This document shows, one piece after another, positions 12,816 through 60,901 of a DNA stretch of 64,000 bases. The stretch spans positions 73,997,763 to 74,061,762 of the forward strand of contig CM071570.1 in NCBI GenBank assembly GCA_036426205.1, written 5' to 3'. How positions within the stretch are numbered: the first letter of the stretch is position 1; the number at the start of each line of letters is the position of its first letter. The stretch comes from Ascaphus truei (Eukaryota > Chordata > Amphibia > Anura > Ascaphidae). A program made the translations under genes and the position numbers. The notes under the pieces were generated by a model. It was not told where the DNA came from. It saw only the letters and a program-made list of their open reading frames with translations, and ran no database searches.

Positions 12816-13247
12816 TATATACAATAATACCTAGGGAAAAAGGCACTATGTAAGGCAAGTATTAGATGAGAGGAAATTCTACTTTAAACAGATGTACCGT
12901 GTAAGATTTCGGCAGATACAGTGGCGACAAAAAGTTTGTGTACCCCAATGATAATTACAGAAATTCAAAAGATTTTCCATGATAACCTTCTTGAATCAAA
13001 ACCAGTGTTTTCTTAAATATCCAATAGGGCTTATATTAACCAATTCCATGTCTTTTGAAACAAAAGTCATGGTATGTTCAAAAGTAAGTGAAACCCTCTT
13101 ATCAGCTAAATTAATGGGTATCATTAGAATCAGGTGGTGAAATAATTAGGTAGATCTTCAGGGGTGAGTTTGGGATGCCCCACCCTATATAAAGATCAAA
13201 ACTGTTGTGAGTTTGATCTTCACCATACAGGTGTGTGGAAACACGTC

Positions 13248-13526
13248 ATGCCACGATCAGAAGAAATCTCTGAGGAACTCAGAAAAGTAGTTATTGATGC
13301 TCATCAGTCTAGAAAGCGTTACAAAGCAATTTCTAAGGATTTCGGGCTCCACCAATCCACTGTCAGACAGATCGTCTACAAATGGAGAAAGTTCAAGACC
13401 ACAGTCACTCCACCCAGGAGCAGTCATCCTACCGAATTCTCTCCAAGAACAAACTGTCAAATCATCCAGGAAGTCACAAAGAACCCAGAGAAACCTCTAA
13501 AGATCTGCAGGTCACTCTCGCCTTGA
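13248..13526 (+). pseudogene. Tc1 copy 1 transposase, N-terminal half
   Basis: This encodes the DNA-binding part of a Tc1-family cut-and-paste transposase. From the ATG at 13248 the frame reads MPRSEEISEELRKVVIDAHQ, then KAISKDFGLHQSTVRQIVYKW, the first helix-turn-helix of the paired-type domain that binds the terminal repeats. The frame is lost after about 93 codons; neighbouring frames continue with STIRK-like and GRIARRN-like Tc1 sequence to about 13660. There the coding region is interrupted by Tc1 copy 2, and the catalytic half lies at 28609-29214. The gene is dead through frameshifts and interruption. Confidence 0.8.
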
Positions 13527-13810
13527 CTAATGGGAGTGTTCTTGACTCAACTATCAGAAAAAAGACTGAACAAAAATGGTGTTCATGGAAGGATAGCCAG
13601 GAGGAATACACTGCTCTCTAAAAAGAACATTGCTACCCGTATGAAGTTCACCAAAGAGCACATTCAGTGGTGAGAAGAAATTTGTGAACCCCTTCAGATT
13701 TTCACATATTTCAAACTTAATATTTTATTAGATCTTAATTTAAATCCTAATAATAGATAAAGATAACCTCATCAAACAAATGACACAAAACCATGATACT
13801 TTTTAAACAT

Positions 13811-14149
13811 TTATTTCTCCACAAATGATTCAACATTAAATATCCATGAGTGATAAAGTATGTGAACCTTTAGATTCAGAACCTTTTGAGCAGCAATAAC
13901 TTCAACTAAGCATTTCCTGTAACTGCTGGTCAGTCTCTCACGTCGATTTTGAGGAATTTTGGCCCATTCCTCCTTACAGAATTGCTTCAACTCAGTGGCA
14001 TTTGAGTGCCACCATGCATGGACAGCTCTCTGCAGGTCATGCCACAACATTTCAATGTGGGATCAGACCGGACTTTGACTAAGCCATTCTAAAACACGGC
14101 ATTTCTTCTTCTGCAGCCATTCTTTGGTAGATCTGCTTGTATGTTTATG
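13811..14149 (-). pseudogene. Tc1 copy 2 transposase, C-terminal part
   Basis: Minus-strand translation gives MLWHDLQRAVHAWWHSNATE and then EWAKIPQNRRERLTSSYRKCLVEV. This is the standard C-terminus of Tc1 transposases (IE.LWHDLKRAVH..., EW.KIP..RCERLV.SYRKRL..V). The remainder of the DDE catalytic domain and the N-terminus lie beyond the BEL insertion at 27530-28244. Its stop is near 13811 and the C-terminal frame is otherwise open. Confidence 0.8.
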
Positions 14150-14154
14150 ATTAT
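14150..14154. repeat. Left 5-bp target-site duplication of BEL/Pao (ATTAT)
   Basis: ATTAT directly precedes the LTR here and recurs at 27530-27534 directly after the LTR fragment, both inside Tc1 copy 2 sequence. Five base pairs is the usual duplication size for BEL/Pao. Confidence 0.75.
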
Positions 14155-14682
14155 TATCCTGAAGCCAGGGTCACGAATGGTGTATGAATGACTCCAGGTA
14201 GCTTAACTCGTGTCTCACCTCTTCAAGAGCACAAACAAGTCCTTTTCTCTTTCTTGGTTTTATTGAGGGAAAACACCGGGAGTGGTGCTTGTAGATGGAG
14301 TGTGGGGAGAGAGGGCTTCTCTGTCTGCTGTGCAGTGTATCAATAATGAGACAGTGTAAACAAAAAGGCCTTGCTGGGGTGATAGCAGGCAGTTACTCAC
14401 TCAGATTCCAGGGTCAAAAGGAAATGAGGAGTAGGGTCACACTAATAGGAAGTGGACTATACTAACTGTCAGCAAGGACAGGGGGGATGAATAGCACATC
14501 TCAGCTAGGAGAAATGAGCTGCAGGCACCAAACAGGCTGTGTAAACGACATGTTGCAATAATGTTGCATTTTACATACAGCGTTGCTGCTGGGACAGGAA
14601 ACTGACAGGCAACTAAAGAAGGGAGAAATGATCCCATAACTAAAGGGGAAGACAGAGGAATATGGAATCTAGTTCCAGGACA
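14155..14682 (-). mobile_element. BEL/Pao 3' LTR (LTR A)
   Basis: Read on the minus strand it begins TGTCCTGGAACTAG and ends CTTCAGGATA. It is homologous over its whole length to 24221-24762, with several small indels. A minus-strand AATAAA polyadenylation signal lies in CCTCAATAAAACC near 14264. The internal sequence directly 5' of it ends ..AGACTGGGAG, a plausible polypurine tract. It is about 528 bp. Confidence 0.85.
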
Positions 14683-14930
14683 CTCCCAGTCTGGTATCTG
14701 GAGATACTACTATTTTAGGTATGTGTGGAACATATGTGCAATACAACATAACATGCAAAACTCATGTCCACATGACGATGGGATACCGTCCGGTACCACC
14801 AGCTTAAGTCCTTGCCATCTCGGTAAGGTAGGTGAATGCACAGCTCTAGGTTAGCTTGATGCACCACAATGTCTCTCAGAGTCCATAGAACTGGTAGCCA
14901 GTTCTTCTTTGTAATAGTCCGATTTTGGCA
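14683..14930. other. BEL/Pao region between integrase and 3' LTR
   Basis: Non-coding tail of the element containing the putative polypurine tract next to the LTR (minus-strand GACTGGGAG). Confidence 0.6.
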
Positions 14931-16184
14931 TTAGGAGGATAGTATCAAAAGTGTGATAGGTCTCAAAAAAGTCTTAACGACCCCGTTCTGGGTCACCCGA
15001 ACTTCCACTTTGCGGACCCTTTCATCTTCGCTTGGGAAGGTTTTGATTATAAGTCCCATGGGCCATTCGTTTCTTGTTACCTGTTTGTCTTTCAACAAAA
15101 CCACGTCTCCTACTTGGATGTCCGGTTTAACCGTTTGCCATTTATGGCGTTCTTGGAGTGTCACTAGATACTCGCGTCTCCAGCGATCCCAAAATGTGTT
15201 AGCCAAGTGCTGCACCTGTCTCCACTGTCGCTTGTACATATCTTTAGAGTGGAAGCCTCCGACTGGGGTGGGGATGTTCCCTACTTTCTGGGTTAGCAGC
15301 ATTGCTGGCGTCAAAATACTTGGCGATTCTGGATCCGTTGACACTGGAATCAAAGGCCTAGCATTGATTATTGCTGATATTTCGGCCATGAATGTGGTTA
15401 ACACTTCGTGAGTGAGTCGAGTCAGGTTGCTTTTTAGCATCATAGAGTCCAAGATACGCCGGACTACCCCGATCATGCGTTCCCATGCTCCGCCCATGTG
15501 AGAGGAGTGAGGAGGGTTGAATGTCCACGTGCACTCTTGGTCGCGCAAGTATCTTTTGATACTATTGTCTTTATTATCTTTAGTGTCTATTTGTAATTCC
15601 TTACATGCTCCAACGAAATTGGTACCACAATCGGAGCGTATTTGTTTAACTGGTCCTCTGACTGCAAAGAACCTTCTGAGGGCATTTATGATGCTTGAAG
15701 CATCCATAGATTCTATAACCTCGATGTGTATCGCTCGCATACTCATGCAGGTGAAGAGTACCGCCCATCGTTTGCTGTTTGCTAGTCCGCCCCTAGTTCT
15801 ACGCGAGATGACCATCCAGGGCCCAAATACATCAAGTCCTACATAGGTAAAGGGGGGTTCTGTATTAAGTCTGTCGACAGGTAGATCCGCCATCCTTTGG
15901 TCTTGGCTTTTGCCTCTCAGCATTCGGCACCTAAAACATTTGTGGAGATTACTGGCCACGCACCTTTTCATGCCAACGACCCAAATGCCCGCCGCCCTAA
16001 TGGCGCCTTCGGTGAAGTGTCGTCCCTGATGCATGACTTGTTCGTGGTAGTGGCGCACCAATAAAGTGGCGATGTGATGCCGGCCAGGGATGATAAGAGG
16101 GTTGCTTTCCTCCCTGCTCAGTTGGGACTTATTGAGGCGGCCTCCTACTCTCATGAGGCCGTCGTTGTCGATGAAGGGATTCAA
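14931..16184 (-). pseudogene. pol: BEL/Pao pol: integrase domain
   Basis: This is the integrase that inserts the retrotransposon cDNA into the genome. The 417-codon open segment shows an N-terminal HHCC zinc-binding region (residues 36-86: RHHIATLLVRHYHEQ then CVASNLHKCFRC). It is followed by the DDE core with D118 in YVGLDVFGPW, D185 in QIRSDCGTNF and E235 in MGGAWERMIG, and by a BEL-type C-terminal domain (WPMGLI.KTFPSEDERVRKVEV). It is downstream of and in frame with the RNase H segment, from which it is separated by one TGA codon at a CpG-derived position (CGA to TGA is the simplest reading). Catalytic residues are intact; the polyprotein as a whole is not. Confidence 0.9.
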
Positions 16185-16187
16185 CTT

Positions 16188-17492
16188 TCAAAGTGGACTG
16201 TTTTTGTTAATACTCTTCTTTCCGCGAATGCAATTGATCTCTTCCGCATATGTTTCCCTTTGAACATGACTGAGAACAGTTTCCTTAGCCTTTGTAATTT
16301 CCTCTACGGTGCGCAGCTCTTTGCAGATGTGCCAGCCGTGGCAGCCGGTAGTTTTACCGTCTGGTGTCTGGCGGAAGGAGGAGGCTATATGCCCGAGATG
16401 GGCTACTGTTCGCAGAAGGGCCGTCCACTTTGAGAAGCGTTGGAATCGATGTGATCCGAATGCGTTTCTGTGCGATACATTGGTGAGTACTACGGATACT
16501 TGTGGGGGCCTTATCTCCGTATCCTTTTCGGGATCCACGAGTTCAAAATCGTCAACTGGGGTTGGTAGCGTTTCCGCAGGCTGTGCAAGAAACATTGGTC
16601 CTGTGAGCCACGACGTATTCTGCAGTTGAGATGCGGGTACTGATCTGGTGGCGTGATCTGCGGGATTTTGTTCTGTGGGCACGTGGTGCCATTGTTCTGG
16701 TTGGGTTGACTTCCTGATTCTTTCTACGCGGTTAGCTACGTATACGTAGAATCTCCTTTTCTTATTGTAGATGTATCCCAGTACCACCTTGCTATCTGTG
16801 TAGAGTTTGACGGCATCTGGTTTGCTGTCCATCTCATTCTCGATAAGCTCCGCCAGTTCTACTGCTAGCACTGCACCACACAGCTCGAGTCTGGGTATAG
16901 TATGGTCAGGTTGTGGCGCCAGCTTAGCTTTGCCAAGGATGAACCTGATGTGGCAACTTCCATCCACGTCCGTGGTTTTTAGGTAGGCCACCGCTGCTAT
17001 AGCTTTGGTGGAGGCATCTGAGAACACGCAAAGCTCTTTGCTGTGTGCGGCGGTGAGAGATATAGGTAAATAGGGGCGTGGGATTTGAAGTTGCTCGAGG
17101 GCCTTCAAGGAGTGTTTCCACGTTTCCCACTCTTTCCGTTTTTCTGGAGGTAGTGGGGTGTCCCATTCCTGTTTTTCGAAGGACATTTCTCTGAGGAGGG
17201 ACTTCCCTTGTATAGTGACAGGAGCCACGAATCCTAGCGGGTTGTAGAGACTGTTAACGGTGGACAGGACTCCGCGACGTGTGAAGGGTTTTTCTTCGAT
17301 GGCTACCTGGAACGTAAAAGTGTCTGTTTTAAGATTCCAGCTTATCCCCAGGCTCCGCTGTATGGGAGGCGTGTCGGTCCCCAGATCCAAATTCTTGAGA
17401 TCTGGTGCTTGATCATCTGCGTGGAACGCCTTCATCACTGTGGCACTGTGGGAAGCTATTTTGTGCAACCTTAGGTTGGCCTTCGCTAACAT
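16188..17492 (-). pseudogene. pol: BEL/Pao pol: RT C-terminal part, RNase H and connector
   Basis: This covers the RT thumb/connection and the RNase H that degrades the RNA of the RNA:cDNA hybrid. The segment opens with MLAKANLRLHKIASHSATVM, the usual BEL sequence after the YVDD box, then SLGISWN and GVLSTVNSLYNPLGFVAPV. The RNase H acidic residues are seen in CVFSDASTKAIAAVAY, IPRLELCGAVLA and KLYTDSKVVLGYI. It is joined to the RT segment upstream by an apparent 1-nt frameshift near 17525 (the GAGAAGAAGCC stretch), and ends in a TGA before the integrase. Confidence 0.88.
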
Positions 17493-17515
17493 CTTTTGTG
17501 TCCTCTTGAGTAGAT

Positions 17516-18424
17516 CTACGGCTTCTTCTCGGTGGGAACTGATTTTAATCCGTCGTCCACATAGAAGTCTCTTTCGACGAAGCTCCTGGCGTCTTTCCCG
17601 AACTCTGCTTCTCCGTCTTGGGCCGTTCTTCTGAGGCCGTAGGCTGCCACTGCAGGTGATGGGCTGTTCCCGAAGACATGTACTTTCATGCGGTACTCCG
17701 TGATTTCTTTTTCTATGTCGTCATCTTGGTACCACAGGAATCTTAGGTAGTTACGGTTGTCTTCTCGCACAAGGAAGCAGTGGAACATCTGTTGAATGTC
17801 TGCGGTTACGGCGATAGGTTCCTTGCGGAAGCGGATCAGCACTCCCAGAAGACTGTTCGTCAGATCCGGCCCAGTGAGGAGAACATCGTTTAGGGAGACT
17901 CCCTGATGCTGAGCGCTGGAGTCGAATACCACTCGGATTTGGCCAGGTTTCTGGGGGTGGTAGACGCCAAACGACGGGAGGTACCAGCATTCTTCGCCTT
18001 CTTTCAGTGGGGGCGCCGACTCTGCATGGCCACTGTGGAAGATTTTTTGCATGAAGGTCACAAAGTGTTCCTTGGTCTCCGGTTTCCTTTGTAGGTTACG
18101 GCGGAGCGAAGCGAGCCTAGACATAGCATGGTCTCTGTTGTTTGGGAGGCGTCTTCTTGGCGAGCGGAAAGGTAGTGGGGCCACCCAACTGCCCAATTCG
18201 TCCTTGAAGAGCTCCTTATCCATTAACCTCAAGAATTCTTTGTCTTCCATTGATGGCGCCTGTTTGTCGTCGTCCTTTGTTGTCTGGAACACTGTACTCC
18301 CTAGGTCATTGGGGTATTTTCTTGCCACAGGCGCGTCTCCATAGTTCCTTTTGGTCTTGAGCTTCTCGTGGACCTGAAAGTGGTTCGGACAAGGTTTGAA
18401 GTGGGATATACGACCGTTCTCCAA
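17516..18424 (-). pseudogene. pol: BEL/Pao pol: reverse transcriptase
   Basis: This is the reverse transcriptase that copies element RNA into cDNA. The 302-codon open segment contains WVAPLPFRSPRRRLPNNRDH, EECWYLPSFGVYHPQKPGQI, RVVFDSSAQHQGVSLNDVLL, TADIQQMFHCFLVRED and the catalytic FYVDDGLKS box at residues 287-295, all characteristic of BEL/Pao rather than Ty3/gypsy or retroviruses. It begins after a frameshift and stop just downstream of the protease segment (18425-18432) and ends by frameshift just after YVDD. The catalytic Asp pair is intact. Confidence 0.9.
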
Positions 18425-18432
18425 CTAGGTCC

Positions 18433-18955
18433 TCATATCCTGTCTATGCATACTTCTCCAACTACCACCCATCCTAGATCGAGCCTTTGGGCGCTTGGGC
18501 CGTTGTGGTCCCCATTTCGCTGTTCGCGGATCTTGTGTGCTCTCATGATGTCTCTGCCAAGTAGCAGCAGGATCTGGGCATCTTCGTCTAGTGGTGGGAT
18601 ATGATCGGCAATGGTTTTTAGATGGGGATGGTGTCGCGCCACGTCTGGCGTGGGGATCTCAGTCCTATCTTCCGCCATGTGATTGCACTCGATGAGTGTG
18701 GGAAGGGGCATGCTCACTTTGCCGTCTATTGAGCACATGGTGTAGCCATTCACTCTTCTCCCTGTAGTCTCCATTCGCCCTGCGCACGTTCTGAGAGTGT
18801 AAGGAGAAGTACTGTCTTGTATGCCGAACATATCGAAGAATTCTGACCTGACCAGCGATCGGTTGCTCTGGTCGTCGATGATTGCATACATCCGTTTGGC
18901 TCTTTGGGGTTGTCCCTCTGGGTGCACTGCTACCAGACATATTTTAGAGCAAGAT
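18433..18955 (-). pseudogene. pol: BEL/Pao pol: aspartic protease-like domain
   Basis: This is the putative Gag-Pol processing protease (DUF1758-type domain found in BEL/Pao). The open segment contains MYAIIDDQSNRSLVRSEFFD; DDQSN is the family's active-site block. It continues through LLLGRDIMRAHKI and SAQRLDLGWVVVGEVC. The frame can be followed upstream of the listed start through SCSKICLVAVHPEG into the end of gag. It reaches gag only by a frameshift at a 12-base G run (19010-19021). It ends with an in-frame TGA after VCIDRI. Confidence 0.85.
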
Positions 18956-21265
18956 CTACCGTCGTTTCCTTCTCCGCATACTTCTGAGCATTTGGATCCT
19001 ACTGACGTCGGGGGGGGGGGGTGTCTCCCACTTCTTTTCCTCCCCGCCCTGCTTTGTCGGAGGGTTAGGGGCTTTGCTTGCTTTGGGCTTCATAGCTTCC
19101 GGGTGTAGAGCGGCTATGTGCCTGTCGCTATCGCACTCTGTGCATTTCATAGCTTCTTTGCAGTCCTTGAATAAATGAGTTGTGGAAGCACAACATTTGA
19201 AACAGGCTCCCCATTCCCTGAGTAGGTTCTTTCGCTCCTCTATGGGTTTCATCCTGAATCCGAAGCACTTGTTAAGTGGATGCGGCTTTTTGTGGATAGG
19301 GCATTCTATGTTAAGGTCCCTTGGTTTTTTGTCCCTGTCGGCCGTCTGGCTGGGACTCGCGTGGGTCGTAGGGGGCACCTCCGTCCTGTGGACCGAGATG
19401 GGTGTTCTGGAGTCCTTGTACCTTGCTGTTGACCTTTCGTTCCTCGGGTGGCTGGCGCTGGATGTGGTTTGCGCCCCTAAGATGAAGCTGGGGTCGTTTC
19501 TTGTCCTTGCCGCTTCGCAGATGAAGCTCACGAAGAATGAGAATGGGGGGAAGACAACCTGCTTCTCCCTTTTGTATTTGGAACCTTGTGAAAGCCACCT
19601 TTCTTGGAGGTTGAAGGGTAGCTTCTCCAGGATGGGTCTCACTCCACGAGCTGAATCTAGGGCGTTGATACCTATTAAGGAATGGTCTTTCCTTGCGAAC
19701 TCCAGTTCTTGCAGCAGGTCTCCAAGATCTCGTAACTTCGAGTAGTCTTTACTCGTGATCTTGGGGAAGCTCTCGATTCTTTTGAAGAGTGAATCCTCGA
19801 CTGCTTCAGGGCTGCCATAGGTCTCTTCTAGCCTTTCCCACACTAGGTCCAGACCTACTTGGGGTTGATGTGCGTTTGCCGTCCGAAGTCTCTGCGCTTG
19901 CTCCCTGGATACGTTCCCCAAGAACTTAACTAACAGGTTGAGCTCTTCCCTTGCTGAGAAGTCCAAGCTGTCGATTGCGTCTTTGAACGTGAACTTCCAC
20001 GTCCGGTAGTTCTCAGGGCGGTCGTCGAAGCTGATGAGTCCTGCGTGCACCAAGTCGCGCCGGATCATGTACTTGGCTATGTCTGTCAGACCTGAGACAT
20101 CGGCGCGTTTGCCCCGTTCTGAGGTAGTTGCTGGGACGGTCTGTGCGGTCGCCTCTTCCTTGGCGTGGACGCGTGATGGCTGCTGGCCAGTGTGAGGGGC
20201 TGTTTTCTCCCGCGTGGGTGTACCTGGATTACGAGCCTGTTGTGGTGCATCCGTGTGCGCTCTGGCGTGTAGATCACTGTTGCGGCTGTGGCTATCCCAG
20301 GCAGCGTGTGCCATTGACGGAGCAGCGTCTTCTCCTCGTGGTCCTAGCGAGTCTTCGTTGTCTGTGGTGTCACTCCCTCCGTGTTGAGATGGTGCGCTGG
20401 TGTTTACACTGAAGAGGCTCCTTACGTAGTATTCAGTGCGTTGGGCTGGATCCTCTGAAGCTATCCATCTGTACGGTAGCTCCCCGCCGTCCTGTCTCGC
20501 AGCTGCTTCTAGGACTTTGGCTTGGGCTATGGCGGCAGCGGCGTCCTCTTCTTTGCTTAGAGCCTCTAGATCCGCGTCTAATTCGGCCTTTCTACGCGCA
20601 TTGGCAGCGGAGGCGGCCTGCTCCTCCTCTTCTATGTGCGCCCTTTCTGCCCTTACGGCTGCCTCTCTCCGACCATATTCGGCCCTGGCACGTGCGGCCT
20701 CTGCGGTGGCTCGCGCCTTGGTAGCGCTCGCGCTTGCGCTAGACGCGTGAGATTGCACTGATCTTGCTGACCTTGATGAGTGTCTGGATGTGCTTGAGCG
20801 CTGTGATGCAGTTTCCAGCAAATGGTCCTTTCTCTGGTCTTCGGCCTCAGTAATAGTGGTCTGCACGAAGCCGTCACGCTCCAGGTCAGTTGCCTCCTGC
20901 TGGTCGCGTTAGCTGAGGCTTTCCTCTGTGTTAATTCTTTTTAGGTAGGCGAGATATGTTTGTGACAGCATTTGGTAACGTTTGTGACTTGACCTCAATT
21001 GGGCTATAGCTTGCCTTATTTGTTTCTCCTGATCACTAGTGCTTGCAACGTTACATACTTCACGACCAGTGTCCTCCCAGGCCTTCTCTAACCTTTCGCG
21101 GTGTGCTTCAATGTCAGTCTCATATTTTTCGCGGGCCTTTTGTGTCAGTGTGACTGTCCGTTTAGGCCTTGCGCCTGCCTGCGCCTGTTGCAGATGCGCA
21201 GCGGTCTCTGTGTCTGAGAGATCGCTTTCCTGCGTGATGTCTGGTGAGGCTCTGAGTTCTGCCAT
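18956..21265 (-). pseudogene. gag: BEL/Pao gag, copy 1 (one nonsense codon)
   Basis: This is the structural capsid/nucleocapsid precursor. The start is MAELRASPDITQESDLSDTE at 21265. A charged, Ala/Glu/Arg-rich probable coiled coil follows (AEAARARAEYGRREAAVRAE), then the capsid-like core (SGLTDIAKYMIRRDLVHAGL, FDDRPENYRTWKFTFKDAID). Near the C-terminus lies a Cys/His nucleocapsid region with CFKCCASTTHLFKDC and CTECDSDRHIAALH. A TAA at 20909-20911 interrupts the frame; gag copy 2 has GAA there, so one base change explains it. The C-terminal residues after PPPPDVSRIQ are out of frame because of the G run. Confidence 0.9.
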
Positions 21266-21705
21266 GCTGTAGGTGTGTGTAGGCCTTTGCCAGTGCGTGT
21301 GGCGTGCGGTCTTTTACCTTGTCAGCGATGGGCGTCTGTCTCAGATGATGCCGAGCGGTGTCCTGCAGCGTGCAGCGTTGGGGTAGCTGTACTTACAGAT
21401 GTCCGTTGGCTCCTCACTGTGGGGCTGAGCAGCGGGTGGACTCAGACAGAGAAAAAGGCAATTAGGTTTGTGTGTACAGTCTGTTTGCAAAGCTGCTGCC
21501 TTGTGTGCAGGGTTGCTTGTGCAGTGTAGGCTGCTTGCTTATCTGTAAGGCTGCAGGCTGTGTGCAGTTTGCTGTATAAAGCTTGCTGTCCTGTCTGGCA
21601 GAGTGAAGCTGCTGCTTGTCCTGGGGTGCAGAGACTATTCTGTATAGCATAAAGTCTTTGAGTAGTAGCTGCTGTGTGATTCCCTAACACAGGTCTTTGT
21701 TTTAC
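21266..21705 (-). promoter_or_regulatory. BEL/Pao 5' leader, copy 1
   Basis: Untranslated leader between the LTR remnant and the gag start, nearly identical to 23781-24220. The primer-binding site should lie at its minus-strand 5' end (GTAAAACAAAGACCTG..., near 21705), but I could not match it to a tRNA. No splice signal was recognised. Confidence 0.7.
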
Positions 21706-23780
21706 TATCCTGAAGCCAGGGTCACGAATGGTGTATGAATGACTCCAGGTAGCTTAACTCGTGTCTCACCTCTTCCAGAGCACAAACAAGTCCTTTTCTC
21801 TTTCTTGGTTTTATTGAGGGAAATGGGACTCGCGTGGGTCGTAGGGGGCACGTCCGTCCTGTGGACCGAGATGGGTGTTCTGGAGTCCTTGTACCTTGCT
21901 GTTGACCTTTCGTTCCTCGGGTGGCTGGCGCTGGATGTGGTTTGCACCCCTAAGATGAAGCTGGGGTCGTTTCTTGTCCTTGCCGCTTCGCGGATGAAGC
22001 TCACGAAGAATGAGAATGGGGGGAAGACAACCTGCTTCTCCCTTTTGTATTTGGAACCTTGTGAAAGCCACCTTTCTTGGAGGTTGAAGGGTAGCTTCTC
22101 CAGGATGGGTCTCACTCCACGAGCTGAATCTAGGGCGTTGAGACCTATTAAGCAATGGTCTTTCCTTGCGAACTCCAGTTCTTGCAGCAGGTCTCCAAGA
22201 TCTCGTAACTTGGAGTAGTCTTTATTCGTGATCTTGGGGAAGCTCTCGATTCTTTTGAAGAGTGAATCCTCGACTGCTTCGGGGCTGCCATAGGACTCTT
22301 CTAGCCTTTCCCACACTAGGTCAAGACCTACTTGGGGTTGATGCGCGTTTGCCGTCCGAAGTCTCTGCGCTTGCTCCCTGGATACGTTCCCCAGGAACTT
22401 GACTAACAGGTTGAGCTCTTCCCTTGCTGAGAAGTCCAAGCTGTCAATTGCGTCTTTGAACGTGAACTTCCACGTCCGGTAGTTTTCAGGGCGGTCGTCG
22501 AAGCTGATGAGTCCTGCGTGCACCAAGTCGCGCCGGATCATGTACTTGGCTATGTCTGTCAGACCTGAGACATCGGCGCGTTTGTCCCGTTCTGAGGTAG
22601 TTGCTGGGAGGGTCCGTGCGGTCGCCTCTTCCTTGGCATGGACGCGTGATGACTGCTGGCCAGTGTGAGGGGCTGTTTTCTCCTGCGTGGGTGTACCTGG
22701 ATTGCGAGCCTGTTGTGGTGCATCCGTGTGCGCGCTGGCGTGTGGATCACTGTTGCGGCTGTGGCTATCCCAGGCAGCATGTGCCATTGATGGAGCAGCG
22801 TCTTCTCCTCGTGGTCCTAGCGAGTCTTCGGTATCTGTGGAGTCGCTCCATCCGTGTTGAGATGGTGCGCTGGTGTTTACACTGAAGAGGCTCCTTACGT
22901 AGTCTTCAGTGCGTTGGGCTGGATCCTCTGAGGCTATCCGTCTGTACGGTAGCTCCCCGCCGTCCTGTCTCGCAGCTGCTTCTAGGACTTCGGCTTGGGC
23001 TATGGCGGCAGCGGCGTCCTCTTCTTTGCTTAGAGCCTCTAGATCCGCGTCTAATTCGGCCTTTCTACGCACATTGGCAGCGGCGGTGGTAGCAGCGGCG
23101 GCGGCATTGGCGGCGGAGGCGGCGGCGGCGACCTGCTCCTCCTCTTCTATGCGCGCCTTTTCTGCCCTTACGGCTGCCTCTTTCCGACCATATTCGGCCC
23201 TGGCACGTGCGGCCTCTGCGGTGGCTCGCGCCTTGGTAGCGCTCGCGCTTGCGCTAGACGCGTGAGATTGCACTGATCTTGCTGACCTTGATGAGTGTCT
23301 GGATGTGCTTGAGCGCTGTGATGCAGTTTCCAGCAAAAGGTCTTTTCTCTGGTCTTCGGCCTCAGTAATAGTGGTCTGCACGAAGCCGTCACGCTCCAGG
23401 TCAGTTGCCTCCTGCTGGTCGCGTTCGCTGAGGCTTTCCTCTGTGTTAATTCTTTTTAGGTAGGCGAGATATGTTTGTGACAGCATTTGGTAACGTTTGT
23501 GACTTGACCTCAATTGGGCTATAGCTTGCCTAATTTGTTTCTCCTGATCACTAGTGCTTGCAACGTTACATATTTCACGACCAGTGTCCTCCCAGGCCTT
23601 CTCTAACCTTTCGCGGTGTGCTTCAATGTCAGTCTCATATTTTTCGCGGGCCTTTTGTGTCAGTGTGACTGTCTGTTTAGGCCTTGCGCCTGCCTGCGCC
23701 TGTTGCAGATGCGCAGCGGTCTCTGTGTCTGAGAGATCGCTTTCCTGCGTGATGTCTGGTGAGGCTCTGAGTTCTGCCAT
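21705..23780 (-). pseudogene. gag: BEL/Pao gag, copy 2, truncated and fused to LTR sequence
   Basis: The open frame is 691 codons from the same MAELRASPDITQ start. It tracks copy 1 closely, with an intact GAA where copy 1 has a stop. After VPPTTHASP the frame runs into LTR-derived sequence (ISLNKTKKEKRTCLCSGRGE...) and stops at the LTR end. The Cys/His nucleocapsid region and all of pol are lost. An Ala-rich stretch (near 23076-23130) is expanded relative to copy 1 by GCN-type codons. If transcribed from the 24221-24762 LTR it could give a Gag lacking nucleocapsid. Whether it is expressed is unknown. Confidence 0.88.
21706..21823 (-). mobile_element. BEL/Pao LTR remnant (118 bp, middle of tandem)
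   Basis: It matches the 3'-terminal part of the other two LTRs (minus strand: CCCTCAATAAAACCAAGAAAG through CTTCAGGATA) and retains the AATAAA signal. On its other side it joins gag copy 2 within a codon, at about 21823. The rest of this LTR (the U3-like part) and everything from the end of gag to the LTR in copy 2 are missing. Confidence 0.85.
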
Positions 23781-24220
23781 GCTGTAGGTGTGTGTAGGCC
23801 TTTGCCAGTGCGTGTGGCGTGCGGTCTTTTACCTTGTCAGCGATGGGCGTCTGTCTCAGATGATGCCGAGCGGTGTCCTGCAGCGTGCAGCGTTGGGGTA
23901 GCTGTACTTACAGATGTCCGTTGGCTCCTCACTGTGGGGCTGAGCAGCGGGTGGACTCAGACAGAGAAAAAGGCAATTAGGTTTGTGTGTACAGTCTGTT
24001 TGCAAAGCTGCTGCCTTGTGTGCAGGGTTGCTTGTGCAGTGTAAGCTGCTTGCTTATCTGTAAGGCTGCAGGCTGTGTGCAGTTTGCTGTATAAAGCTTG
24101 CTGTCCTGTCTGGCAGAGTGAAGCTGCTGCTTGTCCTGGGGTGCAGAGACTATTCTGTATAGCATAAAGTCTTTGAGTAGTAGCTGCTGTGTGATTCCCT
24201 AACACAGGTCTTTGTTTTAC
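23781..24220 (-). promoter_or_regulatory. BEL/Pao 5' leader, copy 2
   Basis: Nearly identical to the 21266-21705 leader (for example TGCTGTAGGTGTGTGTAGGC and TGGTTTTAC-adjacent ends). It lies between the full LTR at 24221 and gag copy 2. Confidence 0.75.
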
Positions 24221-24762
24221 TATCCTGAAGCCAGGGTCACGAATGGTGTATGAATGACTCCAGGTAGCTTAACTCGTGTCTCACCTCTTCCAAAGCACAA
24301 ACAAGTCCTTTTCTCTTTCTTGGTTTTATTGAGGAAAAACACAGGGAGATAGGTGCTTGTAGATGGAGTGTGGGGAGAGAGGGCTTCTCTGTCTGCTGTG
24401 CAGTGTATCAATGATGAGACAGTGTAAAACAAAAAGGCCTTGCTGGGGTGATAGCAGGCAGTTACTCACTCAGAGTCCAGGGTCAAAAGGAAATGAGGAG
24501 TAAGGGTCACACTAGATAGGAAGTGGGACTATACTAACTGTCAGCAAGGACAGGGGGGTAGGAATAACCCACTCTCAGCTAAGAGAATATGAGCTGCAGG
24601 CAACCAACACAGGCTGTGTAAACGACATGTTGCAATAATGTTGCATTTTACATGCAGCGTTGCTGCTGGGACAGGGGAAACTGACAGGCAACTAAAGAAG
24701 GGAGAAATGAATCCCATAACTAAAGGGGAAGACAGAGGAATATGGAATCTAGTTCCAGGACA
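24221..24762 (-). mobile_element. BEL/Pao 5' LTR (LTR B)
   Basis: Full-length LTR of 542 bp, from CTTCAGGATA (at 24221) to the TGTCCTGG terminus (at 24762, minus-strand reading). It differs from LTR A by scattered substitutions and small indels. The minus-strand AATAAA is retained. Beyond its terminus comes the AIPL1 block, not the Tc1 sequence expected from the TSD pairing. Confidence 0.85.
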
Positions 24763-25009
24763 CTAGGATATAGTCAAATACATTCTTGATTCCATTGGGT
24801 CCTATCAGAATGTATGGAACCCTCAGAGGTAACATGAAAACCCTGAAAAGACAGAAGACCGAAATAAGTAACAACTGATAGGGTTTAATGTTCCACTAAA
24901 ATAATTAGTCTGGGAAAACAAAATGCAAAGCTACACAGGGGCAATATGCGCTTAGAGAATACAAGACAAACTAAAGTTATTTGCAAGAACTGCAGTGCTA
25001 AATAATAAT

Positions 25010-25205
25010 AATAATTGTTTGTTCTTGTATAGCGCTGCTATTTTTACGTGGCACTGTACAGAGACATTTTGCAGGCACATGTTTTTGGTGCCTGAGACAC
25101 AGGGAGATAAAGTGACTTGCTCAAGGTCACAAGGAGCTGACACTAGGTTCCTCTGCTTCAAACTCAGTGCCAGAGTCAGTGTCTTTACTCACTGAGCTGC
25201 TGCTT
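25010..25205. repeat. L2/MIR-type LINE 3' end or SINE core
   Basis: It contains TATAGCGCTGCTATTT, then GTGACTTGCTCAAGGTCACA and a CTCACTGAGCTGC end, the conserved core shared by L2 3' ends and MIR-like SINEs. Similar blocks are at 50690-50990, 56150-56310 and 58015-58110. Confidence 0.6.
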
Positions 25206-25775
25206 CAGTGCAGAAGCAATGGTAGCAGGGCACAAACAAAAAGCAAGGGGCAATAAGTGAAAATAGAATAACAAGACAAAAACAAAAAGGTATCCGTAGA
25301 TCTTCAGAATCTAGAAATATGATGAAACAAAACAGGGAAAAACTAAACGCTAGGGAACAGAGAATAATCAAACCGCTGCTCTGTAAACAGAAGCAACTAA
25401 AAGCAAGATGGCTGCTGGCCTCAAGGAATATTCTAGTCCTACCGGCTCTGGGTCTGAAATTCATTTCTCTGTGCGCGCCTACAAGTCTATGAGGAGTATG
25501 GCAGGAAGGAATCTTGACAGGCCCAACCCATGTCAATTTTCTATTTGAATTCTTCTTAAAGTTTCCACATTCTGCAAATTCTACCAATCTGTCTGTTCAT
25601 TCCTGTTGCTGTAACCATACTTACACACTGATGCTTAGTGTCATACATACACATACTGTATATACACTGTATAAATACAAAATATTTTCTTTGTGTTGTA
25701 TTGCTTGTTTAATGGAGGCTGTCTGTGGGGGACAGAAACCAATGTGATAACCATTTCATGTTCTCCTTTGGAAAG

Positions 25776-25955
25776 GTGACCTTCCATTTTCGCACATTGA
25801 AGTGTGATGGTGAGGGAACAGTGATTGATGACAGCAAGACAATTGGGACCCCAATGGAGATCGTCATCGGCAACATGTTCAAACTGGAGGTTTGGGAGGT
25901 GCTGCTCACATCAATGAGGATTGGAGAAGTGGCTGAATTCTGGTGTGATGTCATA
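25776..25955 (+). CDS. aipl1: AIPL1 exon 2 (aryl hydrocarbon receptor interacting protein like 1), partial
   Basis: This is one coding exon of AIPL1, known in other vertebrates as a photoreceptor co-chaperone needed for cGMP phosphodiesterase 6 folding. The 60 codons encode part of the N-terminal FKBP-like domain: [20 protein letters not shown], then [20 protein letters not shown], then [31 protein letters not shown] and EVAEFWCD distinguish AIPL1 from its paralogue AIP (IGKKFKLPVWE). The exon is bounded by an acceptor (GGAAAG|GTG at 25775/25776) and a donor (GTCATA|GTGAGT at 25955/25956). Its length of 180 bp, phase 0 at both ends, equals human AIPL1 exon 2. There is no stop or frameshift. 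I found neither exon 1 nor exon 3 in the window. It lies inside a retroelement stack, so it may be a duplicated fragment rather than the working gene. Confidence 0.85.
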
Positions 25956-26428
25956 GTGAGTAACCAAACACTATTAATATCAAGTACTGCTTAGATATAA
26001 TGCAGAGTTTGATAGGAGTACAAGTTGTCTGAATTTTGCTCCAACAATCTTAATTCAAATGTAAGGGGTATAAATGTTAGTCAGCAAGATGGCAAAATGT
26101 TAAGGCCAATATTTACTATGTGCTATTCAATAAGACACCTTATGGACCATTTAAGCGAATGGGACATAAAGGGCCCTATTTACTAAGCAGCACAATTTGA
26201 TAAGACACCTTATGGTGCTTAAAAAAAACCTTACTTATCATTCACTTGAATGGGGCATGAGGAGACATATTTACTTAGTAGTCCCAGAAGCAGGGCCGGT
26301 GTAAGGGTAGTAGATGCGCTAGCTGAACCTTCAGCCTTACACTCCCCCCCCCCCCCAATTCAATTTCAGGGGAGAAAAATTGTGCCCTGATACAATCCCC
26401 TCTCCCTCACATACACTCTCCCTTAGAC

Positions 26429-26737
26429 CAGGGGTGCACAAAGTGGGGGGTGCGCCCCCCAGGGGGGGGGAGAATTTCCAGGGGGGCGCGGTGGCTACAG
26501 AGGTCCCGCGCTCTCCCCCAAGGCACTTAAATTAAGTGCTGGGGGGACAGCGTGAGGCCTCTGCAACTTCTCCTACCTGATCTTTGACGACGCGTCACCA
26601 TGGTAACCGGTGTCAAATGACGCTGTGGGGTCACGTGATGCCATTTGATGCCGGAGCCTTGCAGGAGGGGGGCACGAGCCTGGAGGTGAGAAGGCAGGGG
26701 GGGGGGGGGCGCATGCTCAAAACTTTGTGCACCCCTG
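26429..26737. mobile_element. hAT-type MITE, family A copy 2
   Basis: Terminal inverted repeats CAGGGGTGCACAAAGT / ACTTTGTGCACCCCTG, flanked by a perfect 8-bp duplication CCTTAGAC (26421-26428 and 26738-26745). It is 309 bp and very GC-rich, with G runs. It shares GGCACTTAAATTAAGTGC with 8638-8905. Confidence 0.92.
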
Positions 26738-26740
26738 CCT

Positions 26741-27482
26741 TAGACACTTTCTCTCTCCCCCTCTCATTCTATCTCTCCACTCCCTCTCGTTCACTTTGTC
26801 CCTCCCCTCCCTCTCATTCTCTCTCTCCTCCTCTTTTTCTTCTCACCCCCTCTAATTCTCTCTCCCCCTCCCTCTCGTTCTCTTTGTCCCTCCCCTCCCT
26901 CTCATTCTCTCTCTCCTCCTCTTTTTCTTTATCCTCCTCTCATTCTATATTTCCCCTCCTCTCATTCTCTCTCCACCCTTTCATTCTTTCTCCCCCCAAC
27001 CTCTCATTCCCTCTCACCTCTCTCTCTCTCTCATTCTCTCTCTCCCCCTCCCTCTCAGTCTCTCCTCCCCCACCCTCTCATTCTCTCTCCCCATCCCTCT
27101 CATCCTCTCTCCCCTCCATCATTTTCTCTCTCCCACCCTCCCTGTAATTCTCAATCTTCCTCACCCCCTCTTTTCTTTCTCTCTCCTCCCCTCATTCTCT
27201 CTTACCCGCTCTCTCTTATTCTCGCTCCTCTCTCCTTCTCTCTACCCCATCATCATTTTCTCTCTCCCACCCTCTCTCATTCTCTGTCCCCGTCTCATTC
27301 TCTCTGACCCCCCCTCTATCTTTCTATCTCCCTCTCTTATTCTCTCTCTTACTGCTCCCTCTCATTCTCTCACCTCCCTTCTTCTTATTCTCTCTATCAC
27401 CCTCATTCTCTCTCCCCTTCCCTCTCATTCTCTCTCCCCCTCCCTCTCATTATCTCTATCCCCCCTCCCTCTCATTATCTCT
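26741..27482. repeat. Polypyrimidine microsatellite (CTCTCTCCCCCTCTCATT)n
   Basis: About 740 bp of nearly pure C/T with recurring CTCATTCTCTCTC and CCCTCCCTCTC units on the plus strand. Such tracts can form triplex DNA. It ends exactly at the junction with the BEL LTR fragment. The long plus-strand frame over it has no biological meaning. Confidence 0.9.
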
Positions 27483-27529
27483 ATAACTAAAGGGGAAGAC
27501 AGAGGAATATGGAATCTAGTTCCAGGACA
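27483..27529 (-). mobile_element. BEL/Pao LTR 5'-terminal fragment (47 bp)
   Basis: Identical to the last 47 bp of LTR B (24716-24762) and to 14636-14682 of LTR A. It is followed directly by ATTAT and Tc1 copy 2 sequence, so it marks the true outer end of the BEL insertion. Confidence 0.88.
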
Positions 27530-28244
27530 ATTATTGCCTTGCTGCATGACCCACTCTCTCTTCAGATTCAGCTCACAGACGGATGGCCTGAATTTCTCCT
27601 CTACAATCATCTGATACAATGCAGAATTCATGGTTGTGGTCATGGTTGTGGCAAGCCATCAAGTCCTGAGGCAGCAAAGCAGCCCCAAACCATCACACGC
27701 CCATCACCATGCTTGACGGTTAGAATGAGGTTCTTTTCTAACACCGTTTTGGTTTTCACCAACCAGAACATTTCCCATTGAGGCCAAAAGAGACTTCTGG
27801 ACATCTGTTCAGAGAACATTGTTCCAAAAGTCTTGTGGATCATCTATGTGCGCTTTGGCAAAATTCAGATGGGAAGCAGTGTTCTTTTTAGAGAACAGTG
27901 GTTTCCTCCTTGCTAACCTTGCATGAATACAATTCTTGTTCAGTCTTTTTCTAATAGTTGAGTCATGAACACTCACATTAGCCAAGGCAAGAGTGGCCTG
28001 CAGATCCTTGGGGTTCTTTGACTTCCTGGATGATTTGACGGTTTGGTCTTGGAGAGATTTTGGTAGAATGATAGCTCCTGGGTAGTGACTGAGGTCTTGA
28101 ACTTTCTCCATTTGTAGACTGTCTGTCTGAAAGTGGATTGGTGGAACCCCAAATACTTAGAAATTGTTTTGTATCACCTTATGGATTGATGAGCATCAAT
28201 AACTGCTTTTCTGAGTCCTCAGAGGTGTATTTTTATAGTGGCAT
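27530..28244 (-). pseudogene. Tc1 copy 2 transposase, N-terminal and central part
   Basis: Minus-strand pieces include an ATG at 28244 followed by a degraded helix-turn-helix region, MEKVQDLSHYPGAIILPKSL, AHIDDPQDFWNNVL, FWLVKTKTVLEKNLILTVKH and GDGRVMVWGCFAASGLDGLP. These are central Tc1 transposase blocks, including the region around the second catalytic Asp. Frames change several times. It joins 13811-14149 across the BEL insertion. Confidence 0.8.
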
Positions 28245-28608
28245 GACGTGTTTCCACACACCTGTATGGAGAAGACCAAACTCACAAAGTTTCTGATCTT
28301 TATATAGGGTGGGGCCTCCCAAACTCACACCTGAAGATCTACCTAATTATTTAAACACCTGACTCTAATTATTCATTTTAATTTGGCTCATAAAACCAGG
28401 GTTTCACTTACTTTTGCATAAACCTTGACTCTTAATTACTCATTCTTTGTCTAATGAAAACATCATTTTATTTAAAAAGACATGGACTTGGTTAATATAA
28501 ACCCTACTGGATATTTAAGAAAAGATTGGTTTCTATTCAAGAAGGTTATCAGGGAAAAAATATGGAATATCCGTAATTATTATTGTGGTTCACAATTTCT
28601 CTCCACTG

Positions 28609-29214
28609 CAGATGATCCACAAGACTTCTGGAACAATGTTCTCTGGACAGCTGAGTCAAAGGTAGAACTTTTTGGCCTCAATGAGAACCGTTTTGTTTGG
28701 CGAAAATCAAACACTGTGTTCGAATAGAAGAACCTCATCCCAATCGTCAAGCATAATGGTGGGAGTATTATGGTTTGGGGCTGCTATGCTGCCTCAGGAC
28801 CTGGACGGCTTGCCATCATTGACACAATCATGAATTCTGCACTGTATCATAAGATTCTAGAGGAGAATGTCAGGCCATCCGTCCGTGAGCTAAAGCTGAA
28901 ACGAAAATGTGTCATGCAGCAAGACAATGATCCTAAAAATACAAGCAATCTACAAAAGAAGGGCTGCAGAAGAATACATTCCAGATTTTAGAATGGCCTA
29001 GTCGAAGTCCGGCCCTAAACCGCATTGAAATGTTGTGGCAGGACCTGAAGTGAGGTGTACATACAAAGAAGTCCTCAAATGTCACTGAGTTAAAGCTGTT
29101 CTGTAAGAAGGAATGGGCCAAACTTCTTCAAAACCGATGTGAGAGACTGACCAGCAGTTATATGAAATGCTTAGTTGAAGTTACTGCTCCTCAAGGAGGT
29201 GCCACCAGGTAATG
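28609..29214 (+). pseudogene. Tc1 copy 1 transposase, C-terminal half
   Basis: Plus-strand reading gives DDPQDFWNNVLWTAESKVEL, GLNENRFVWRKSN, GGSIMVWGCYAASGPGRLA, ..LYHKILEENVRPSVRELKLK and [10 protein letters not shown], the DDE catalytic half of a Tc1 transposase. Stops and frameshifts occur near 28727 and 28990, after which [20 protein letters not shown] and EWAKLLQNRCERLTSSY-like codons continue to about 29214. It joins 13248-13660. Confidence 0.8.
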
Positions 29215-29369
29215 AATCTAAAGGTTCACATACTTTTTCATTAGATATTGAATGATGAATCATTTGTGGATATAAAATATTGAAAAAGTATTGTGTTTTT
29301 GTACTATTTGTTTGATCAGGTTATCTTTATCTATTATTAGGACTTGGATTAAGATCTAATAACATTTTA

Positions 29370-54019: not shown

Positions 54020-54640
54020 GCAACCTGAGAAGAGGAGGGGGGGCGTGAGAGGAGGAGGGGGGCGTGAGAGGAGGAGAGGAGGAAGGGGGGGGGGGAGAGG
54101 AGGAGGGGGGGCATGAGAGGAGGAGAGGGGGGGGCGTGAGAGGAGGAGGGGGGGGCGTGAGAGGAGGAGGGGGGCGTGAGCGGAAGGAGGAGGCGTGAGA
54201 GGAGGAAGGGGGGCGTGAGAGGAGGAGGGGGGTCGTGAGAGGAGGAAGGGGGGCGTGAGAGAGAATGGGGGGAGGAGGGAGGAGGGGGGGGCGTGAGAGG
54301 AGGAGGGGGGTGTGAGAGGAGGGGGGGCGTGAGAGAGGAGGGGGGCGTGAGAGGAGGAGGGGGGGCATGTTGCAGGAGGGGGGGCGTTAGAGGAAATGGG
54401 GGGGTGTGAGAGGAGGAGGGTGGGGATGTGAGAGAGGGGGGGGGGTGAGGAGGAGGGGGGGCATGAGAGGAGGAGGGGGGTGAGAGGAGATGGGGGGGGT
54501 GAGAGGATGAGGGGGGTATAGGAGCTGGGGGGGGCATGAGAGAGGGAGGGGGGGGCGGAGAGGATGAGGTGGGGCGTGAGAGGGGGGTGGGGAGGGGGAG
54601 GGGGCGTGAGAGGAGGACGGGGGGGCGAGAGTCACAGAAA
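54020..54640. repeat. Polypurine G-rich tandem array
   Basis: About 620 bp of GAGAGGAGGAGGGGGGGCGT-like units, nearly free of C and T apart from the recurring GCGTGAG. The proline/serine-rich minus-strand frames over it (up to 259 codons) are artefacts of composition. Potential triplex or G-quadruplex former. Confidence 0.92.
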
Positions 54641-59248: not shown

Positions 59249-60307
59249 TGTTAGGATTGGGCTTAGGCCCCGCGATGCATTGCGCAACATCACGGATGGC
59301 GTGCATCAGCCGCAACCGGCATGCAGACGCCGCACCACCTGGAGGAGAGACGCACCAAGTCCGGATTCCAGGTCCCGCGCCGCCACAGTAAAACAACGGC
59401 TTACTCCATCAGCTGCTCCATACCTTTAGTGCATCCCTCTACAGCCTATCAAAGGACATCTTACATCTAACTACTGATTGCCCACACCCTCCTGCTGCTT
59501 CTCCATTGGCTGCTTGTGCTTTATATGCTCTGGCAAACTGGCTGAGCATAAATCCTGTTTACGTATTGTTTGCTTACCTCAAAGCTTCCTGCTGCCCTGC
59601 CTATTTTTGTTTTGCTTCCTATTTTTGACTAAAACTTGTACCTGGACCTCTACCTTCTCTGACTCCTTGACCACGGATACAGATAACGACGATTCTACTC
59701 TCTTTCCCCTTGACCATGGCTCCGGATTACGACAACGCTACATGCTCCATACCTAGACCACGGCGAGTATTACTACCACCAAGACCTCTCCTATCCTGAC
59801 TCGGCTACTCGACCAATACTCTGCACTCCGGACGCGGTCACGCGGTTATAGGTCGGTGACTACTACTGATGCAGCGGCCGTTATTCGAACAAATCACGGC
59901 GCCAATTTTGAGTTATCTGCTGTTCCCCACGCAGCATGAATGCGGCCAATCGCCCCAGGCACCTGCGCTTATCGCGGATGTTTTATTTGAATTTCATGGA
60001 TTCTGTTTCTTTGTTTGCAATAAAATTGATGAATTGTAATGTGTACAGTACTGTGCTACTGTGCTGCTGTGTCAATTTCATGTTTTTAAAAGCCAGAACA
60101 CTAAAACGTTTTTCTGCACTCGCCGCGCTCACATCTTAGTGCGGGAAGGCTGGAATTTATCCCGCAGTTTCAAATCGGGATTCCGATGTACATGACGCGT
60201 GAAGTGCTCGAATAACGGCCGCTGCATCAGTAACATCCCCACCTCAAACTCGCGGTCTCGTCCAGTTTGTGGTGAGCGCACGTTGCAGTATGCTCAGCCC
60301 TAAAAAC
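59249..60307 (+). mobile_element. Ty3/gypsy LTR and leader (with nested MITE)
   Basis: Starts TGTTAGGATTGGGCTTAGG. It contains a possible TATA box (CTTTATATGC, about 59518) and C-rich leader sequence (CTTGACCACGG, ACTCCGGA), and ends CCTCAAACTCGCGGTCTCGT before gag. The exact LTR/leader boundary is not resolved. The LTR near 400-1313 shares its 3' part. Confidence 0.7.
59866..60230. mobile_element. TA-flanked MITE (CWGATGCAGCGGCC family), copy 2, nested in gypsy
   Basis: Termini CTGATGCAGCGGCCGTTATT and its complement ending GCCGCTGCATCAG, with TA at 59864-59865 and 60231-60232. It is 365 bp, homologous to 11243-11603 throughout (GAATTGTAATGTGTACAGTA and AAAAGCCAGAACACTAAAA are shared). It is inserted in the gypsy LTR/leader, so it is younger than that copy. 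Confidence 0.9.
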
Positions 60308-60901
60308 ATGGACCCTGCTGAGGTGGGTCGACTTTTGAACGACCATGCCAGCATGTTTAAGAAGCTGGAAAAATATTTGGCACAAAATGACCAACGTAGG
60401 GAACTACTCCAATGCTCGGTTCAAGCCATTACTGACCAGACCCAACCTGGCTCCTCTCACTCTGCATCCCCAGCGACTCCTGCCCCAACACCCATCCCTA
60501 TGACCGCAGCTTCGAAAACACGACTACCTACTCCAAACCGCTATGGCGGCGACCATCTTGGCTGTCGCGTTTTTTTGAACCAATATTCTATTTACTTTGA
60601 GCTAATGCCCTCTCGATTTCTGTCTCAGCAGTCTACGTGGCGTACATTGTCTTTGCTAATGGATGACGCTTTGTCATGGGCTTCACCCATCCGGGAGCAG
60701 AGGCCGTATCTCAGCAGTGACATCACATGCTTCACTAAAGAATTTCACAGGCTATTCGATACCCTTGGACGCAAGGTAACTGTTGCCTCTTCTCTTTTAA
60801 ATATTTCTCAAGGCAACTACCCTGTGGCCCGGTACGCAGTCGAATTTCGGACCATAGCTGTCGAGACCGGCTGGAATGATGAGGTCTTGACTGAAACATA
60901 A
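60308..60901 (+). pseudogene. gag: Ty3/gypsy gag, 3'-truncated
   Basis: Structural protein of a vertebrate Ty3/gypsy retrotransposon. The ATG at 60308 starts MDPAEVGRLLNDHASMFKKL, a helical N-terminus. A Pro/Thr/Ser-rich linker is followed by the retrotransposon gag capsid domain: TPNRYGGDHLGCRVFLNQYS, FELMPSRF, TWRTLSLLMDDALSWASPI, FTKEFHRLFDTLGRK, YAVEFRTIAVETGWNDEVL. The frame ends after about 197 codons, where a 42-bp minisatellite begins, so the nucleocapsid zinc knuckle and all of pol are absent. No internal stop is seen in the preserved part. The family also gave rise to domesticated PEG10/RTL-type genes, but this copy still sits next to an LTR. Confidence 0.85.

Follow-up and report, generated by a model that had tools for sequence, protein, structure and literature searches.

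We analysed a 64,000-bp stretch of the genome of Ascaphus truei (GenBank assembly GCA_036426205.1, contig CM071570.1, positions 73,997,763 to 74,061,762 of the forward strand), hereafter the window, in which an exon of the eye gene AIPL1 lies inside a nested BEL/Pao retrotransposon. The 5' long terminal repeat (LTR) of this element is complete to position 24762. Past that position, where the surrounding Tc1 transposon is expected, there are 2,720 bp of host DNA with AIPL1 exon 2, followed by an exact copy of the last 47 bp of the LTR. The best explanation, which we hold tentatively and with a probability of roughly 0.45, is that the 5' LTR broke after integration, that repair copied from another BEL element near AIPL1, and that it was finished by end joining.

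A BEL/Pao insertion in two Tc1 layers

Self-comparison and alignments showed that the BEL/Pao element, on the minus strand, lies within a Tc1 element, which itself sits within another Tc1. The parts of the nest are as follows; Tc1 boundaries are the limits of alignments.

12936 to 13663, plus strand: outer Tc1, part 1 (84.6–85.4% identity to the inverted inner Tc1; resumes at 28610)
13718 to 14154, minus strand: final part of the inner Tc1, as far as the BEL site (81.7% identity to 29369–28927)
14150 to 14154: left copy of the BEL target duplication ATTAT (sequence, joined-site alignment)
14155 to 14682, minus strand: BEL 3' LTR (L), 528 bp (LTR alignment)
14683 to 24220, minus strand: BEL/Pao body, broken, with a tandem duplication and an LTR-end fragment (Pfam, alignments)
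21706 to 21823, minus strand: terminal 118 bp of the LTR, mid-element, between the tandem units (self-comparison, alignment)
24221 to 24762, minus strand: BEL 5' LTR (R), complete, 542 bp, with U3 at 24339–24762 (LTR alignment)
27530 to 27534: right copy of ATTAT (sequence, joined-site alignment)
27533 to 28595, minus strand: inner Tc1, first part (self-comparison, alignment)
28610 to 29369, plus strand: outer Tc1, remainder (self-comparison, alignment)

Both Tc1 layers pair up across the insertion, the outer as 12936–13663 with 28610–29369 and the inner as 13718–14154 with 27533–28595. A Sleeping Beauty-type helix-turn-helix (HTH) domain was detected with Pfam in an open reading frame (ORF) at 13146–13526, within the outer Tc1. 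The BEL/Pao element has a Pao-type pol, two LTRs (528 and 542 bp), and ATTAT on both sides. We reconstructed the empty site from 80 bp of each flank and a single ATTAT and aligned it to the other Tc1. The alignment ran through the junction for 158 bp, at 82.9% identity and with a single 1-bp gap (E = 3e-38). Thus, two claims of a preliminary description of this DNA, that the ATTAT pair is the BEL target duplication and that Tc1 reads continuously across the insertion, were borne out.

Since the flanks rejoin into Tc1, one BEL insertion with its target duplication accounts for both outer ends, and the sequence between these ends therefore arrived with BEL or later. Neither the target duplication nor either Tc1 layer has been disturbed; therefore, the change that brought in the host DNA was internal to the BEL insertion.

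Junctions and the 47-bp duplication

The outer part of the 5' LTR and the DNA that follows it are arranged as follows.

24716 to 24762, minus strand: LTR terminal 47 bp, first copy (self-comparison)
24763 to 27482, plus strand: host segment, 2,720 bp, AIPL1 intron 1, exon 2 and intron 2 (sequence, protein comparisons)
25776 to 25955, plus strand: AIPL1 exon 2, 180 bp, 60 codons, intact splice sites (AG before, GTGAGT after; AIPL1 match)
26747 to 27482: pyrimidine-rich tract, 736 bp, 90.1% C+T, reaching the outer junction (composition)
27483 to 27529, minus strand: LTR terminal 47 bp, second copy (self-comparison, alignment)

The 47-bp block is identical at 27483–27529, 24716–24762, and 14636–14682, and no further copy was found on either strand of the window at up to 10 mismatches. 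A chance repeat was ruled out by the exactness of these three copies and the lack of others at that threshold. The inner junction (24762/24763) falls at the exact last base of the LTR, and the duplicated 47 bp finish at the same LTR base. At the outer junction (27482/27483), the pyrimidine tract meets the LTR 47 bp from the LTR end. About 2 bp (AT) at this junction could be assigned to either side, judged by eye. Inspection by eye of the host-segment junctions revealed no poly(A), poly(T), or TTTT/A motif. The alignments thus upheld the earlier account of a complete 5' LTR, then host-type DNA, then a 47-bp LTR copy.

The host DNA abuts the exact LTR terminus, as it would at a real BEL integration junction, and this favours copying from a junction between an LTR and AIPL1. 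Such copying would make the duplication end at the LTR terminus, which a chance 47-bp duplication need not do. Insertion mediated by a long interspersed nuclear element (LINE) with a 47-bp target duplication was also considered and rejected, because poly(A) is absent and a duplication reaching the LTR terminus would be a coincidence.

AIPL1 exon 2 and the annotated gene

The exon matched AIPL1 best among solved structures (E = 5e-30 vs. 1e-20 for AIP). Among the AIPL1 relatives compared (the best 120 of 433), the annotated A. truei AIPL1 protein, P0081, was identical to the exon at all 60 residues, and other frogs within the 25 best matches showed 84.7–88.1% identity. The cluster of P0081 contains three sequences that these comparisons do not distinguish. 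The exon had been described as intact and correctly spliced: its integrity and splice sites (AG/GTGAGT) hold, and the splicing itself is a prediction from these sites. Intron sequence flanks exon 2 on both sides, and with no poly(A) at the junctions, the host segment was therefore not copied from a spliced mRNA. A processed retrocopy was rejected on the same two grounds.

The annotated protein starts with MFSFGK, the in-frame translation of the intron sequence that leads from position 25758 to exon 2; after exon 2 it continues with the residues of exons 3 onward, and exon 1 is missing. The annotated gene therefore uses this exon and intron end, or other sequence identical to both, and the present locus may itself be the annotated AIPL1. 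That exon 2 is duplicated, as the preliminary description had it, is consequently unproven. The annotated model is probably wrong at its start, having no exon 1 and an intronic ATG ahead of exon 2. Among the best 120 of 464 matches to P0081 (proteins 0.55–1.75 times its length), there was no second A. truei AIPL1.

The window was searched for other AIPL1 exons over 25.7 kb upstream and 38 kb downstream of exon 2. Neither exon 1 (human and Discoglossus queries) nor exons 3–6 (human, A. truei, and Discoglossus queries) were found. TXNDC17 and MED31, which we take to be neighbours of AIPL1, were likewise not recovered in the window: TXNDC17 gave no convincing match (the best, at E = 0.06, lies inside BEL), and MED31 none at E up to 1. 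A literature search for papers on A. truei AIPL1 found none.

Element body and divergence of the LTRs

Four BEL ORFs were scanned with Pfam, and three matched: Peptidase_A17 (E = 3e-46), DUF5641 (5e-27), and DUF1759 (6e-6). The integrase core (rve) in the DUF5641 ORF was weak (E = 6e-6) and under the curated cut-off; the ORF at 17516–18424 had no Pfam match. Over the 10 window ORFs submitted to Pfam, four were unmatched and one matched only below the cut-off. The pol frame is broken into several separate ORFs, and one gag unit carries a stop codon.

The body contains a tandem duplication in which 21824–24338 repeats 19351–21823 with 50 substitutions and one 42-bp indel. Between the units lies the LTR-end fragment 21706–21823, which on the minus strand begins 8 nt ahead of an AATAAA (by eye) and so may start at the 5' end of the genomic RNA. 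The whole arrangement (19351–24338) resembles the product of a template switch from a genomic-RNA 5' end to the gag of another RNA, or a later tandem duplication. The gag of the two units differs at 17 synonymous and 30 replacement positions over 653 ungapped of 668 codons (dN/dS 0.53, p = 0.04), weak evidence that part of the divergence between units may predate the BEL insertion.

The U3 regions of L (410 bp) and R (424 bp) differ by 11 substitutions and 11 indels, 22 events altogether, and the inner 118 bp (U5) of the LTR pair by 3 differences. The tandem body units show 51 events in 2,515 bp, and their leader and LTR-end part 3 in 510 bp. The divergence of U3 exceeds that of the body units (p = 5e-4) and that of the leader and LTR-end part (p = 1e-5), and for indels alone, the excess over the units has p = 5e-9. 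Because U3 differs more between the LTRs than the body units do, we read the U3 of R as coming from another BEL copy, as a copying model would predict.

Proposed repair of a broken LTR and alternative explanations

The sequence of events that we prefer begins with the integration of one BEL copy (B) into the inner Tc1, which generated the ATTAT duplication; this step follows from the empty-site alignment. The 5' LTR of copy B would later have broken 47 bp from its outer end, and a break at that distance would set the length of the duplication at 47 bp. Strand invasion by the element-side end would then have taken place at the LTR of a second BEL (copy A) lying within intron 1 of AIPL1, roughly 1 kb upstream from exon 2. 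Extension would have run through the U3 and the LTR terminus of copy A and on into the gene for 2,720 bp. Pyrimidine-rich tracts hinder synthesis, and the outer end of the host segment adjoins such a tract with 90% pyrimidines. Synthesis would have halted at the end of the 736-bp tract, with release of the new strand. End joining with about 2 bp of microhomology would have linked this strand to the opposite break end, which retained the terminal 47 bp and Tc1. Such a one-ended invasion completed by end joining would leave AIPL1 exon 2 within the LTR as an unspliced copy of genomic DNA.

The preliminary description had likewise proposed that AIPL1 was copied from another BEL element with its flank. 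The proposal agrees with the anatomy of the junctions and with the U3 excess, and it is not proven. Copying fits best because the host DNA starts, and the 47-bp piece ends, at the LTR terminus and because the adjacent U3 is the more divergent part. Several observations weigh against it. R has the longer sequence at each of the 11 U3 indels, and a 126-bp stretch (14406–14531 of L) holds 14 of the 22 events, which is unexplained. Within the LTR pair itself, the U3 excess over the inner 118 bp is not significant (p = 0.32). The excess could also reflect tandem units younger than the LTR pair or a lower tolerance of gag and leader for indels. Finally, the donor BEL copy in AIPL1 intron 1 is inferred only.

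The alternative that ranks highest, although we consider it unlikely, is that the host DNA was captured during reverse transcription, before integration. A read-in transcript antisense to AIPL1 would have started upstream of copy A and run across exon 2 as far as BEL. A cDNA under synthesis on one genomic RNA would have switched to this RNA, copied the LTR and unspliced AIPL1, jumped a second time to the initial 47 bases of U3, and been integrated as a whole. BEL termini at both ends together with one intact 5-bp target duplication make up one of two hallmarks by which Sabot and Schulman recognise template-switch complexes, as far as the excerpt of their paper goes (PMC1950507). The LTR fragment in the body duplication would also fit, beginning as it does 8 nt before AATAAA like a genomic-RNA 5' end (by eye), and so would the dN/dS of gag, if part of the divergence predates insertion. 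However, the canonical cycle puts the host segment in both LTRs, and the 3' LTR is without it. A switch onto plus-strand strong-stop DNA could avoid this outcome at the price of further rare steps. Moreover, if one RNA supplied the U3 of R together with unit 1 and another the U3 of L together with unit 2, U3 and leader should diverge alike, yet they show 22 events in 410–424 bp vs. 3 in 510 bp (a conserved leader could explain this), and a read-in RNA and two non-homologous switches are required. In this reading, which we regard as improbable, repeated template switching onto a read-in transcript would have given a BEL/Pao particle unspliced, antisense sequence of a vertebrate gene, to be inserted within the particle's own LTR. 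An intron-bearing, DNA-like exon duplicate would then have been produced through reverse transcription. We give similarly little credence to an assembly or library artefact that wrongly joined the host segment. Pyrimidine-rich tracts are difficult to sequence, an exact 47-bp repeat could be a contig overlap, and the U3 indels are clustered and all in one direction. The published A. truei HiFi run is skewed towards shorter reads, according to the excerpt of PMC12401588; yet HiFi reads are thereby among the public data for the species, and the portion of PMC12822217 consulted describes assembly GCA_037306005.1 as built from long reads and 3D data, with a contig N50 of 981.5 kb. A single long read can hold the 3-kb structure, an overlap between long reads would have to be much longer than 47 bp, and the window contains no N bases. 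A contig overlap of short-read k-mer size, suggested by the shared 47 bp at the beginning of both stretches, was rejected in view of the long reads in the published data for the species and the absence of N. Two ORFs, of 418 and 707 aa, remain open at no more than about 400 bp from the two LTRs and thus speak against generally poor quality; they likewise oppose general read error as the source of the U3 indels, with local error possible.

Somewhat less likely still is a native AIPL1 locus, with exons 1 and 3–6 beyond the window and the sole exon 2 put into the nest by a local rearrangement. The start of the listed A. truei AIPL1 at an intronic ATG, without exon 1, looks as if exon 1 were distant or lost; at least one other frog model (P0086) also lacks the usual exon 1, so a missing exon is weak evidence. 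Around the segment, neither the Tc1 layers nor the BEL target duplication is interrupted, which places the entry of exon 2 after the formation of the nest, and the searched flanks gave no other AIPL1 exon. The least probable of the alternatives, and a distinctly improbable one, is a 2,767-bp circle of 47 bp of LTR and AIPL1 flank, closed at the pyrimidine tract, that recombined into the LTR via the 47-bp homology. It would yield the identical structure in a single step, but 47 bp is short for homologous recombination, and it predicts that the U3 regions of R and L come from the same copy, when U3 differs more than the body units do. Circles from triplex-forming and other non-B microsatellites have been reported, as stated in an extract of PMC11161834.

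If the donor of the copied LTR and AIPL1 flank is found, dispersed LTR copies would have served as homology handles that move a neighbouring exon with its splice sites without transposition of the gene. The nested elements and the intact target duplication place the event after three insertions. Should this be the sole exon 2, the annotated AIPL1 of A. truei needs to be redone, and an artefact would be a warning on exon counts near LTRs.

Other features of the window

Two minus-strand ORFs of 493 and 148 aa lie at 61304–63252. The larger (61771–63252) had four matches, all of them uncharacterised A. truei proteins at 56–60% identity, and possibly represents a lineage-specific family; it offered no syntenic anchor for AIPL1. 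A plus-strand ORF at 60203–60901 contains a Retrotrans_gag domain (E = 3e-8). A purine-rich tract at 54041–54361 (at least 90% A+G in 300-bp windows moved in steps of 20) was noted; the only other such bias is at 26741–27201.

Comparison with known systems

Among the papers listed in literature searches, none was recognised from its title and the beginning of its abstract as a BEL exon capture or as a case like the present one, and we do not claim that none has been printed. Richardson and Jasin reportedly described a mammalian case of aborted strand-annealing repair finished by end joining. In Drosophila P-element gaps, aborted synthesis-dependent strand annealing (SDSA) with end joining is as frequent as complete SDSA, according to the excerpt of PMC3962482, which cites earlier work. 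As in those cases, the copying proposed here would begin in homology, could extend into the flank, and would finish by end joining. Unlike in those cases, copying would have used an ectopic LTR as donor and taken in a host exon with the flank, and we infer both break and donor from an evolved sequence.

Like class 2 templated sequence insertion polymorphisms, for which the available portion of PMC5110952 favours RNA-derived patches, the structure lacks poly(A), and under the copying model it would be a patch from elsewhere at a break, possibly with microhomology at one junction. That portion describes class 2 insertions as having no recipient duplication, whereas the present structure has a 47-bp duplication and an LTR end as one of its junctions. 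Features of class 1 (LINE-1-mediated) insertions, namely poly(A) and TTTT/A at the junctions, were not seen by eye. An intact target duplication around a complex element with extra LTR material recalls the template-switch complexes of LTR retrotransposons excerpted from PMC1950507. Those have two cores, three LTRs, and alike outer LTRs, and here the extra DNA is host DNA; the rightmost piece has only 47 bp (identical), and the U3 of R differs from that of L by 22 events. As in 5' transduction by retrotransposons, in the part of PMC13317346 that describes it, host DNA upstream of an element travels along, but from the usual retroviral-type cycle we would not expect transduced DNA to lie within just one of the LTRs and to be bounded on its outer side by an LTR end. 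Aborted strand annealing completed by end joining is a well-known repair outcome, and each of the nearest other kinds of event differs, or may differ, from the present structure in at least one feature.

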